Below are positions 1-18,926 of a DNA stretch of 64,000 bases, one piece after another. Origin of the DNA: Variovorax paradoxus B4 (lineage in GTDB: Bacteria > Pseudomonadota > Gammaproteobacteria > Burkholderiales > Burkholderiaceae_C). The stretch spans positions 4,092,001-4,156,000 of the forward strand of contig NC_022247.1 in assembly GCF_000463015.1 (NCBI RefSeq), given 5' to 3'. Position 1 is the first letter of the stretch; every line of letters begins with the position of its first letter. The translations under genes and the position numbers were made by a program. The notes under the pieces are model-generated. The model saw only the letters and a list, made by a program, of their open reading frames with translations, had not been told where the DNA came from and searched no databases.

Positions 1-1773
1 CGGCACATAGGCGCCGCCGGCCTTCAGGATGCCGAGCAGGCCGATCACGATGTCGAACGAACGCTCCACCGCGATGCCGACGCGCGTCTCGGGTTTCACG
101 CCCATCGCGATCAACCGGTGCGCCAGGCGATTGGCGCGGCGGTCGAGTTCGCCGTAGCTCAGGACCTCGTCACCGAAGAGCAGCGCGGGCGCATCCGGGT
201 TGGCCTTCGCGTGCCGGGCCATCAGGTGGTGCACGGGCTCGGTGCTGCTATCACCGGAATCGTTCACGCCCCATGTCGCGAGCCGCTCCTTTTCGCCCGC
301 GGTGAGCAGGTCGATGTCTCGTGCCGCCTGTTCGGGCCGTTCGTCGAGTGCGCGCAGTACGCCCAGGTAGTGCTCGGCCATGCGGGCGATGCTCTCTGGA
401 TCGAACAGCTCCTGCGCCACATGGAAACTCGCTTGAACGTGGCCTTGCGCGTCTTCGACGGTGCTCAGTGTCAGCTCGAACTGGGCCGTCTGCGTGCCGA
501 TCTCGTAGTCCTGCAGCGTGAGGCCGGGCAGCTTGGCGAGCGCGGCCTGCTCGCGGCGCTGGTGGTTGAACATCACCTGGAACAGCGGCGCCGTGCCCAG
601 GCTGCGTTCGGGCTGCAGGGCTTCGACCAGCTGCTCGAACGGCAGGTCCTGGTGGGCCTGCGCGCCGAGTGCCGCCTCGCGGGTTTGCTGCAGTGCCTGC
701 CGCAGGCTGGTGCGGCTGCCCAGCACATTGCGCAGCACCTGCGTGTTGACGAAGAAGCCGATGACGCGCTCCGACTCCACCCGGTGACGGTTGGCCACGG
801 GCACGCCGACGCGAATGTCCTGCTGCGCGGTGTAGCGGTGCAGCAGCACCTGCAGCGCGGTGAGCAGCACCATGAAGAGCGTGGCACCCTCGGCCCGCGC
901 GCACCGGTGCAGCGCCTCGACCAGAGACTGCGGCAGCGCCATCTCGTGGCGGGCGACCCTGTACTTGCCGTCGCTGCGCCGCGCGTGGTCGGTAGGCAGC
1001 TGCAGCACCGGATGCTCGGCGCCCAGCTGCGCCTTCCAGTAGTCGAGCTGGCGATCCTTCTCGCCGGCTTCGAGCCAGTGGCGCTGCCACGTCGCGTAGT
1101 CGGCGTACTGGATCGGCAGGGGCGCGAGCCGCGGCGCCTGCCCGGCCGCGCGCGCACGGTATTGCGCGGCGAATTCGTCGACCAGGATCTGCATCGACCA
1201 GCCGTCCGACACGATGTGATGCATCACGACGGCCAGCAGGTGTTCGTCGGTGGCCAGGCGGATGAGCGCCACGCGCAGCAGCGGCCCGGCCGTGAGATCG
1301 AACGGCGTTTCGGCCAGGCGCACGGCCGCCTCCCGCGCGCGGTCCTCGCGCACTTCAGCATCGATGCCCGAGAGATCGATGAACGGAATCTCCAGCGCCA
1401 TGCCCTGCCGAATCAGTTGTTCGACATGGCCCTCGGCATCTGCCTGGAACACCGTGCGCAGCGACTCGTGGCGCTCGAGCAAGGCGTCGAAGCTGGCCTT
1501 CAGCGCCTGCGCATCGAGCAGGCCCTTGAGCTTCAGACCGCCCGAGATGTGGTAGGCCGAACTGCCGGGCTCCAGCTGCCACAGGAACCATTGGCGCAGC
1601 TGCGCATACGAGGCGGGGCACTGCGTCTGCGCCGCCGCATCGCGCGCGAGGATCGGGAACTGCCCGATCGCCAGGCCCTCCGCGCGGATCTTCTGGTAGA
1701 CCGCACGGCGCTGCGCCGGATCGAGGCCCGAGAAGCGCTTGCCGATGTGAAGGTGGGTTGCCGTGATTTCCAT
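1..1773 (-). CDS. Non-ribosomal peptide synthetase, partial (C-A..., continues past left edge)
   Basis: A further module of the siderophore assembly line. 591 codons are visible with no stop before the window edge. After a short docking-like N-terminus comes a condensation domain (about residues 50-480) with an intact HHIVSDG motif whose histidines are residues 185-186. An adenylation domain begins near residue 500 and is cut right after its first core motif (LKAGGAYVP). The substrate-selecting residues lie outside the window, so the amino acid cannot be predicted. The ATG at 1771-1773 overlaps the TGA of the upstream NRPS as ATGA, which indicates translational coupling in the same operon. 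The family joins the upstream carrier-bound chain to the amino acid loaded by its own A domain. Confidence 0.93.
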   Translation of the reverse strand, partial: MEITATHLHIGKRFSGLDPAQRRAVYQKIRAEGLAIGQFPILARDAAAQTQCPASYAQLRQWFLWQLEPGSSAYHISGGLKLKGLLDAQALKASFDALLERHESLRTVFQADAEGHVEQLIRQGMALEIPFIDLSGIDAEVREDRAREAAVRLAETPFDLTAGPLLRVALIRLATDEHLLAVVMHHIVSDGWSMQILVDEFAAQYRARAAGQAPRLAPLPIQYADYATWQRHWLEAGEKDRQLDYWKAQLGAEHPVLQLPTDHARRSDGKYRVARHEMALPQSLVEALHRCARAEGATLFMVLLTALQVLLHRYTAQQDIRVGVPVANRHRVESERVIGFFVNTQVLRNVLGSRTSLRQALQQTREAALGAQAHQDLPFEQLVEALQPERSLGTAPLFQVMFNHQRREQAALAKLPGLTLQDYEIGTQTAQFELTLSTVEDAQGHVQASFHVAQELFDPESIARMAEHYLGVLRALDERPEQAARDIDLLTAGEKERLATWGVNDSGDSSTEPVHHLMARHAKANPDAPALLFGDEVLSYGELDRRANRLAHRLIAMGVKPETRVGIAVERSFDIVIGLLGILKAGGAYVP

Positions 1774-4700
1774 CAAGCGATCTCCAAACTGTCGATGAAG
1801 GAATCAATGTCCGAAAGAGATTGGGCGACGGGCTTTCTCGCCGCCGCTGCGGCGACGAGGCCCGCCATGGCGGCGAGCACCGGGTGCTGGAAGACGTCTT
1901 TCACGGAGAGTTCCGCATGCATCGCGCCCTGCACGCGGGCCACCACCTGCACCGACATCAGCGAATGGCCGCCGAGCTCGAAGAAGTTGTCGTGGCGGCC
2001 GATGCGCGGAACGCCGAGCACTTCGGCCCAGATGGCAGCGAGCGCTTCTTCCACCTCGCCCTGCGGTGCTTCGTGGACGCGCGCGCTCGCCAGCTCGGGT
2101 GGCGGCAGCGCCTTGCGGTCCACCTTGCCGTTCGGGTTGAGCGGCAAGCTGTCCAGCGCGACGACGAGGCCCGGCACCATGTAGTCCGGCAGCACGCGGC
2201 CGAGGCGTTCGCGCAGTTGCGTGTTGTCGACGGCCTGTCCCGCCTGCGCCGAGGCGTACGCCACGAGCCGTGCACCACCCACTCCTTGGCTCGCGACGAC
2301 GACCGCCTCGCGTACTTCGGGCTGCGCGAGCAGTTGCGCCTCGATCTCGCCGAGTTCGATACGAAAGCCGCGGATCTTCACCTGGTGGTCGATGCGCCCC
2401 AGGTAGTCGAGCTGCCCTTCGCTGTTCCATCGCACGAGGTCGCCCGTGCGATAAAGGCGCGCGCCCTCGGCCATGCCGAAGGGGTCGGCCACGAAGCGCT
2501 CGGCGGTGAGCCCCGCGCGCTCCACATAGCCGCGCGCAAGCCCGATGCCGCCCAGGTAGAGCTCGCCCGCTACGCCCGGCGCGACGAGGTTCAGGTCGGC
2601 ATCGAGCACGGAGGCCTGCGTGCCGGCAATGGGCCGGCCGATCGGCACCTGGCTGCGGCCGTCGCTGCGGCAGGTCCAGTGCGTGACGTCGATGGCCGCT
2701 TCGGTGGGGCCGTAGAGGTTGTGCAGCGCCGCTTGCGGCAGCCGCCTGAAGACGCCGAGTTGCGCCTCGGCGGGCAATGCCTCGCCGCTGCAGACGATCT
2801 GCCGCAAGCTGGTGCAGGCCTCGATGCCATCGTGCGCCAGGAAGGCCTGCAGCATCGATGGCACGAAATGCAGCGTGCTCACGCCGTGGCGTTGGATCAA
2901 TCGGGCGAGGCGTGCGGGCTCGCGGTGATCGCCGGGTGCCGCCACGGCCAGCCGCGCACCGGCCATGAGCGGCCAGAAGAACTCCCACACCGACACGTCG
3001 AAGCTGAACGGCGTTTTCTGCAGCACGGTGTCCGCACCATCGATCGGGTAGGCCGCCTGCATCCATGCCAGCCGGTTGTGCAATGCCGCGTGCCGGTTGG
3101 CCGCGCCCTTGGGGCGGCCGGTGGAGCCCGAGGTGTAGATCACATAGGCGAGGTTTTCGCCGTTCAGCGCAACCACCGGATCGGTCTGCGCCATGCCCCG
3201 GAGATCCAGCGTGTCGAGCGCGAGCGCCGGGACGGCGGCCGATAGCGCAAGGCGATCGGCAAGGCTGCTGTGCGTGAGCACGACGCCAAGCTTGCTGTCT
3301 TCGACCATGCAGGCGATGCGCTCCGCCGGGTACTCGGGGTCCAGCGGCACGTAGGCGCCGCCGGCCTTCAGCACCGCGAGCAGGCCGGTCACCAGTTCCA
3401 GGCTGCGCTCCAGCGCAACGCCCACCTTGACCTCGGGGCCCACGCCCTCCTCGATCAGCCTGTGCGCGAGCTGGTTGGCGCGGCGGTTGAGTTCACCGTA
3501 GCTGAGCGATGCATCGCCGAAGAGCACGGCGACCGCATCCGGATGCCGTGCCGCCTGCTGTTCGATGAGGCGGTGCACCGGCACGGCCTCGCCGTGGCTG
3601 TGCGTGTTGACGCTCCACTGGCCAAGCTGCGCTTTTTCTGCGGCGCCCAGCAGGTCGAACTCGTTCAGCGTCGATGCGGGCCGCGCGGCCAATGCTTCGA
3701 GCACGCGGCCGTAGTGGCCTGCGAGCCGCCCGATGGTCTGCGGCTCGAACAGCTCGGCCGCATAGCGGAAGTTGGCCCGGATGCCGCCGTCTTCGCACTC
3801 GATGGTTTCCAGCGTGAGCTCGAACGGTGCGGCGCGCTGGGCGAGGTCGATCCGGCGCACGCGCAGTCCGGGCCAGCCCTGCAACGGCCGGTCGCCCTGG
3901 CCAAGGTGGTTGAACATCACCTGGAACAGCGGCGAGCCCGCATGCCCCCGCTCGGGTCGCAGGGCCTGCACCAGCCGCTCGAACGGCAGGTCCTGATGCG
4001 CCTGCCCCTCGAGCGACACGTCGCGCACCTGCAGCAGCAGGTCGACCAGGCGCATCTGCCCGTGCATGCGCGCATCGAGCACCACGGTATTGATGAAGGC
4101 GCCGATGACACCTGAGGTCTCCGGACGGCCGCGCCCCGCCACCGGCACGCCGACGCGGATCGCCTGCTGTCCGGTGTGGCGGAACAGCAAGGCATGGAAC
4201 GCGGTGAGCAAGGCCATGAACAGCGTGCCGCCCTGCTCGCGGGACTGGCGCTTCAGCGCCTCCACGAGCGCCGCCGGCACGTCCAGCGTGTGCTGCGCCG
4301 CGCTGTAGTCCGCGCCGGCGGAGCGCGGCCGGTCGGTGGAGAGCGCGAGCACCGGGTGGCAGTCGCCGAGCCGGCCGCGCCAGTAGGCGAGCTGGCGCTC
4401 GCCTTCGCCGTCGTCCAGCCACTTGCGCTGCCAACGGGCGAAATCGACGTAGCGGATTTCCGGCTGCGGCAGCGATGCTTGTACGCCCTGGACACCTTGG
4501 ACACGCATCGCGTAGAACCGGGCCAGCTCGTCGAGCATCAGCTCGACCGACCAGGCATCGGAAATGATGTGATGCATCATCAGGAGCAACTGGTGCTCGC
4601 CGTCCGCCATCTTCAACAGCGTGCCGCGCAGCAAGGGGCCAGCCCTCAGGTCGAAGGGCGTGCGGCAGACGCCGGACACCACCTCGGCGTAGCGCGATTC

Positions 4701-18704: not shown

Positions 18705-18719
18705 TGAGAACTATTACTA
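18705..18719. promoter_or_regulatory. Fur-box-like site upstream of the sigma factor
   Basis: The 15-base stretch TGAGAACTATTACTA matches the 7-1-7 Fur consensus TGATAATnATTATCA at 10 of 14 positions. It lies in an AT-rich patch that stands out from its surroundings, about 90 bases before the sigma ATG and about 30 before the leader ATG. A Fur site here would shut off the whole siderophore operon when iron is plentiful. Confidence 0.6.
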
Positions 18720-18926
18720 CTTGTGGATACAAAAAGCCCCGATATCCCAACCCCTTCATGCTCCATATCCACTAGACGTTTGAGTACGCAAAAGCGAGAC
18801 AGGCGAGCGCCGGAAATCGGTCGATCCGCTCATCGATGGTGGAGCGCTTGCATGACGGCAGGATGATCGCGTCCACCCCGCATCTAAAATCCCGCCCCTT
18901 TCCCCGATCCCCCCGATCCCTCCCCC
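18720..18926. other. Divergent intergenic region between the siderophore operon and the ParB-like gene
   Basis: About 200 bases between oppositely directed genes. The left part is AT-richer and probably carries the sigma-operon promoter on the minus strand. A TAAAAT stretch at 18885-18890 is a possible -10 element for the rightward ParB-like gene. I see no clear -35, terminator or RNA gene. Confidence 0.4.

Follow-up and report, generated by a model that had tools for sequence, protein, structure and literature searches.

The 64,000-nucleotide stretch of Variovorax paradoxus B4 considered here (the window, G000:C2:4092001-4156000) contains one half of a siderophore cluster, which is complete in the genome once the left flank is added. 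This cluster very probably encodes a siderophore line of the vacidobactin type; with the cluster of V. paradoxus S110 it is compared by printed description. It is an ordinary further example of the already described acidobactin/vacidobactin kind, and the unusual order of building blocks claimed for it in a preliminary description of the window goes back to a misread code. More generally, there is good support for placing it among the hydroxyaspartate/hydroxamate siderophore lines of the Variovorax family. V. paradoxus B4 has two replicons, CP003911 and CP003912 (PMC9115942). The genome used comprises 7,148,516 bases in two contigs, of which contig 2 (5,795,261 bases) holds the window. The left half of the cluster was taken from the same genome, and protein families were assigned with Pfam, some of them also with NCBIfam.

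The assembly line and its resemblance to the acidobactin cluster

With the left half included, the domains found by Pfam give the line FAAL-T-C-A-T / KS-AT-KR-T / C-A-T / C-A-T-E-C-A-T / C-A-T-TE. In this notation, FAAL is a fatty-acyl ligase, T a carrier, C a condensation, A an adenylation, E an epimerisation and TE a thioesterase domain of the nonribosomal peptide synthetases (NRPS), and KS, AT and KR are the ketosynthase, acyltransferase and ketoreductase of a polyketide synthase (PKS). To read the A-domain codes, the domains were aligned with the cluster's own Ser domain and the code positions of the Stachelhaus scheme were used. The codes run DVWNIGLIHK, then the PKS, then DVWHVSLIDK, DGEGSGGVTK (followed by E), DFWNIGMVHK and DLTKVGHVGK. 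Codes are labelled Ser, Thr, Asp or Pro by their customary assignment; for Asp, Ser and Pro, this agrees with the published order of variochelin. The module order FAAL-A(Orn)-PKS-A(Ser)-A(Orn)-E-A(Thr)-A(Asp)-TE is thus present, the Pfam evidence for the TE coming solely from the genome that holds the window. If the FAAL is counted as position 1, Orn stands at 2, followed by the ketide, Ser at 3, Orn at 4, Thr at 5 and Asp at 6. As a control, the same procedure was applied to V. boronicumulans NBRC 103145, which we take to be the published strain BAM-48. It returned Asp, Ser (with E), Pro and then DGECTGGITK twice, for Orn and Orn, in agreement with the published variochelin order, FA-Arg-methylmalonate-Asp-Ser-Pro-Orn-Orn, where FA is the fatty acid (PMC10999976). 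In the variochelin line (L037, G102), the A-domain pattern missed the first A domain (Arg), of which another reading gave a partial view.

Paracidovorax citrulli DSM 17060 / AAC00-1 (L034, G101), the acidobactin producer strain (PMC4598715), has an identical module order and the same five amino-acid codes. Six of the seven condensation-family matches of that genome lie in the acidobactin-like cluster, and a single PKS match reaches E 1e-200 or better. Thirteen of 18 proteins match the fetched 40-kb stretch of P. citrulli at 53-81% identity (the formyltransferase partially, at the end of the stretch), the NRPS and PKS megasynthases being 57-65% identical. Both clusters have a standalone TauD hydroxylase, MbtH, a type II thioesterase, a sigma factor, a TonB receptor and acetyl- and formyltransferases. 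N-acetyl- and N-formyltransferase genes are reported beside the acidobactin cluster (PMC4598715), and such genes likewise adjoin the cluster of the window. The residues at the code positions of the FAAL show one difference (DMGGYGCLYK in P. citrulli, DMGGYGCLFK in the window), and the TauD hydroxylase is 78% identical to its DSM 17060 counterpart, as against 41% for the TauD domain that forms part of the variochelin megasynthase. Vacidobactin of V. paradoxus S110 is, in print, acidobactin-like and methylmalonate-incorporating, which is also what is predicted here. The delftibactin cluster of Delftia, likened by description only and as far as the published excerpts go, is again a FAAL line with a methylmalonate PKS, a standalone Asp hydroxylase, an N-hydroxylase and a formyltransferase.

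First amino acid, extender unit and acyl chain

The preliminary description placed Thr before the ketide and considered this order a distinctive feature. Ornithine, not threonine, is the most likely residue in this place. DVWNIGLIHK and DGEGSGGVTK both appear among the codes printed for modified ornithine in a survey of A-domain codes (PMC12283262). Moreover, position 2 of acidobactin was corrected to ornithine rather than serine, and position 6 was taken as beta-hydroxyaspartate, in a text that names the FAAL as the source of the only significant variation between the predicted and the final structure (PMC4598715). Thr before the ketide thus falls away. The claim of a distinctive order, which depended on the misread code, goes with it: when species genomes were scanned once for the PKS, 45 loci were obtained, a code directly before the AT is readable in 33 of them, and it is DVWNIGLIHK in 25 of these 33. 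When compared with solved structures, the first A domain finds general NRPS relatives only, and these do not indicate its substrate.

Three other readings of the cluster have been considered. The first is a lipopeptide siderophore with a long acyl chain, in which Thr preceding the ketide would be a new and distinctive arrangement. In its favour, the line starts with a FAAL, and DVWNIGLIHK, similar to the Thr code DFWNIGMVHK, was predicted as Thr once (PMC3358349). The code-position residues of the FAAL are also near-identical to those of the variochelin FAAL (DMGGFGCLFK), and delftibactins C-F, which come from a FAAL-type cluster, are described as lipophilic (PMC11472818). This reading is nevertheless very unlikely. 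Apart from the ornithine assignments and the wide occurrence of the code given above, a Thr at this position would leave only two obvious bidentate ligands. In addition, purified acidobactins and vacidobactins left a C18 column at 15.5-16.2 min when acetonitrile rose from 2 to 9%, whereas variobactin A came off at 38 min in a 10-50% gradient (PMC4598715). Judged by this elution, such products as are known for the type are hydrophilic, even though a FAAL starts their synthesis. The window's cluster does have a FAAL by Pfam, from which the length of the acyl chain cannot be read, and the term lipopeptide used in the preliminary description is unproven.

A variochelin- or variobactin-type cluster would be in keeping with the genus and with the common set of FAAL, PKS, Sfp and MbtH, and the AT motif IASH is also that of the variochelin line. 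The variochelin cluster of V. boronicumulans further shares the FAAL start, an amino acid followed by a methylmalonate ketide, hydroxamates, hydroxyaspartate and a Ser module with an E domain. Yet it begins with Arg, continues with Asp, Ser, Pro, Orn and Orn, and has its TauD domain embedded in a megasynthase, whereas the hydroxylase is standalone here; this combination of Arg-ketide-Asp-Ser-Pro-Orn-Orn and embedded TauD is absent from the cluster of the window. The last NRPS finds a best match of only 40% identity in the variochelin line, and the lines with repeated DVWNIGLIHK modules (L036, L038, L039) differ from the present one too. On this comparison with the variochelin line and with these three loci, such an affiliation is hardly credible. 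Equally improbable is a decayed or silent cluster: none of the 18 proteins compared has an internal stop, and orthologues at 91-98% identity with the same modules occur in the genome G005 (18 of 18) and in V. paradoxus NBRC 15149 (15 of 18, the stretch ending in the formyltransferase gene).

As for the extender unit, the window shares the AT motif IASH with the variochelin line, which uses methylmalonate; P. citrulli has VAMH. Vacidobactins are described as methylmalonate-incorporating acidobactins (PMC4598715), and IASH would agree with a vacidobactin-type, methylmalonate product. AT motifs were found in 41 of the 45 loci, IASH accounting for 26 of 43 motifs. Four Variovorax loci (L019, L022, L026, L046) have VAFH in place of IASH, while their module order agrees wherever it can be followed (L046 is cut before the FAAL); this suggests a switch of extender unit within Variovorax.

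Several observations weigh against the vacidobactin-type assignment. Five of the 18 proteins (Sfp, ornithine N-oxygenase, FhuF, exporter and second sigma factor) have no match in the stretch fetched from P. citrulli. The formyltransferase gene is cut by the end of that stretch, and the N-oxygenase of P. citrulli was found about 3 kb past it, so that its place differs. The N-oxygenase of the window's cluster matches Pfam Lys_Orn_oxgnase with E 1.9e-124, and its best NCBIfam model is a histamine N-monooxygenase, below the cut-off (189.7 versus 700 bits). Resemblance to S110 means resemblance to a description (acidobactin-like, methylmalonate-incorporating) rather than to a sequence. An older paper gives an in-silico Thr prediction for DVWNIGLI in an Acidovorax-like fragment (PMC3358349). 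Fifteen of the 45 loci show FAAL, DVWNIGLIHK, AT, Ser code and DGEGSGGVTK in this order, and among them the AT motif varies (IASH in seven, VAFH in three, VAMH in three, VASH in one, TASH in one), which makes it a weak guide to the extender. Finally, the carrier of the Asp module has the motif GGDSI, reported for interaction with the standalone hydroxylase DelD (PMC11472818); the carrier before the E domain has GGDSI too, and the motif is thus not specific to the Asp module.

Gene order, operon and regulation

All the domains named in the preliminary description were recovered by Pfam (FAAL-T-C-A-T, KS-AT-KR-ACP, C-A-T, the cut NRPS, TauD hydroxylase, Sfp, type II thioesterase, MbtH and ECF, i.e. 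extracytoplasmic function, sigma factor; ACP is the acyl carrier protein). On the minus strand, the genes follow one another from the sigma factor through the 67-residue protein, MbtH, type II thioesterase, Sfp-type transferase, TauD hydroxylase, FAAL-T-C-A-T, KS-AT-KR-T and C-A-T to the NRPS cut by the edge:

18068..18664, minus strand: ECF sigma factor, operon start (Pfam Sigma70_r2/r4; identity 98% in G005, 72% in the acidobactin strain)
17768..17971, minus strand: conserved small protein of 67 residues, between the sigma and MbtH genes (identity 63% in the acidobactin strain, 59% in the variochelin strain)
17410..17667, minus strand: MbtH-like protein (Pfam MbtH, E 3.6e-19)
16667..17404, minus strand: type II thioesterase (Pfam Thioesterase, E 1.3e-40; the start is the ATG chosen after the MbtH gene)
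16000..16689, minus strand: Sfp-type phosphopantetheinyl transferase (Pfam ACPS, E 3.2e-14; start MRPVSW)
15011..16003, minus strand: standalone TauD-family hydroxylase, expected Asp beta-hydroxylase (Pfam TauD, E 6.3e-47)
9675..14990, minus strand: FAAL-T-C-A-T, A code DVWNIGLIHK, ornithine-type (Pfam; code read by alignment)
5111..9673, minus strand: PKS module KS-AT-KR-ACP, AT motif IASH, methylmalonyl-type (Pfam, frame 5111-9736; start at 9673)
1773..5114, minus strand: NRPS C-A-T, Ser code DVWHVSLIDK (Pfam, frame 1773-5645; start at 5114)
1..1773, minus strand: N-terminal part of an NRPS of 2626 residues, which runs on past the window's left edge (L015, whole frame G000:C2:4085897-4093776)
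L011:9826-13899, next gene left of the 2626-residue NRPS: last NRPS, C-A(DLTKVGHVGK)-T-TE, 1357 residues (Pfam)
L011:259-897, plus strand: second ECF sigma gene, far end of the cluster

The 2626-residue NRPS has the composition C-A(DGEGSGGVTK)-T-E-C-A(DFWNIGMVHK)-T, its second C-type domain carrying the E-type motif HHLVVDGVSW. In the left flank, on the plus strand and facing the last NRPS, are found genes for FhuF, a formyltransferase, a GNAT acetyltransferase, the ornithine N-oxygenase and a TonB siderophore receptor. Further out come a cyclic-peptide ABC exporter (minus strand) and the second ECF sigma gene (plus strand). The flank thus supplies the rest of the cut NRPS and another NRPS as well as tailoring, uptake and export genes, so that on genomic grounds the siderophore cluster of the preliminary description stands. 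Several scanned frames without any family look like antisense or wrong-frame artefacts and were set aside.

A single coupled operon had also been proposed. From the MbtH gene to the cut NRPS, the junctions are overlapping or within about 20 bases. The 67-residue gene is separated by about 100 bases from the sigma gene and likewise from the MbtH gene. Judging from this spacing, the genes from sigma factor to NRPS likely form one operon. Neither Pfam nor NCBIfam gives a match for the 67-residue protein, which on visual inspection is similar to the start of FecR-type regulators at their N-terminus.

Fur control at the sigma gene, also put forward at first, is not borne out. With a 19-base Fur consensus, no Fur box was found at three or fewer mismatches in the 64-kb window. 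The best Fur-like site near the sigma gene, at 18700, agrees with 12 of 19 bases, and since the window contains 21 matches of at least 12 out of 19 on both strands, this site does not rise above background and is not evidence of Fur control. Inverted repeats near the sigma gene were not telling. Upstream of the second ECF sigma gene, an AT-rich palindrome, AATAAGAATAATTCTTATT, at L011:175 agrees with 13 of 19 positions of the Fur consensus and is also found in G005.

Distribution among relatives and proposed biosynthesis

A PKS match with E = 0 is found in 49 of 101 genomes of the genus (G099 and G100 as contig-end pieces, G081 split in two). Another 49 of the 101 have a PKS match only at about 45-50% identity, apparently a different PKS, and three have no PKS match at 1e-200. 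Among the 45 loci of the species scan, the 12 without a readable code before the AT are contig ends, distant matches or pattern misses. V. paradoxus B4 itself has a second, different PKS adjoining NRPS modules at G000:C2:3464153-3473628 (L013). About 90 of the 101 genus genomes have a PKS match at 45-50% identity, which, if the clusters are assumed to be the same, may correspond to a genus-wide hybrid cluster like L013. A further NRPS, with two condensation domains and a Ser-like code by quick reading, lies about 130 kb right of the window's end (G000:C2:4285538-4290052, L014).

From the genes, module order, codes and AT motif observed here, we infer substrates, chemistry, transport, regulation and product as follows. 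The FAAL would load an acyl group on the first carrier, and module 1 would add ornithine, later turned into a hydroxamate. The PKS would extend the chain with methylmalonate and reduce the ketone, after which the later modules would add Ser, D-ornithine (again a hydroxamate), Thr and Asp. The last thioesterase would free the chain in linear or ester-closed form. The standalone TauD protein, expected to be the Asp beta-hydroxylase, would hydroxylate Asp, probably while the residue sits on the last module's carrier, which is of the GGDSI type. Its matches among solved structures are a TauD/TfdA-like protein and an Arabidopsis clavaminate-synthase-like protein, with no named Asp hydroxylase among them. 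The N-oxygenase, together with the acetyl- and formyltransferases, would make the two hydroxamates at Orn 2 and Orn 4. These and beta-hydroxyaspartate would provide three bidentate ligands, that is six donor atoms, for Fe(III). The ABC exporter would secrete the product, the TonB receptor would take back the iron complex and FhuF would reduce it, the ECF sigma factors tying expression to iron. The expected product is acyl-hydroxyOrn-methylketide-Ser-D-hydroxyOrn-Thr-beta-hydroxyAsp, with three iron-binding groups.

The two ornithine modules differ in code. The DVWNIGLIHK pocket is without an acidic residue besides the invariant Asp235; that of DGEGSGGVTK has a glutamate. It may tentatively be imagined, as a possibility on the doubtful side, that the DVWNIGLIHK module takes a preformed hydroxamate (N5-acyl-N5-hydroxyornithine) and the DGEGSGGVTK module free or N-hydroxy ornithine, the products of the acetyl- and formyltransferases being thereby sorted to fixed positions, and that the strain also makes unreported long-chain vacidobactins, like the delftibactins of Delftia. 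In L027 (third module) and L048 (first module), one of the two codes takes the place of the other in otherwise similar lines, and these loci offer natural tests of such a sorting of positions.

Thus, a plausible-looking claim of novelty is resolved as a misread code, and a definite product can be predicted for V. paradoxus B4. Beyond this strain, the 15 similar lines among the 45 loci, with their differing AT motifs, are useful for reading the choice of extender unit.

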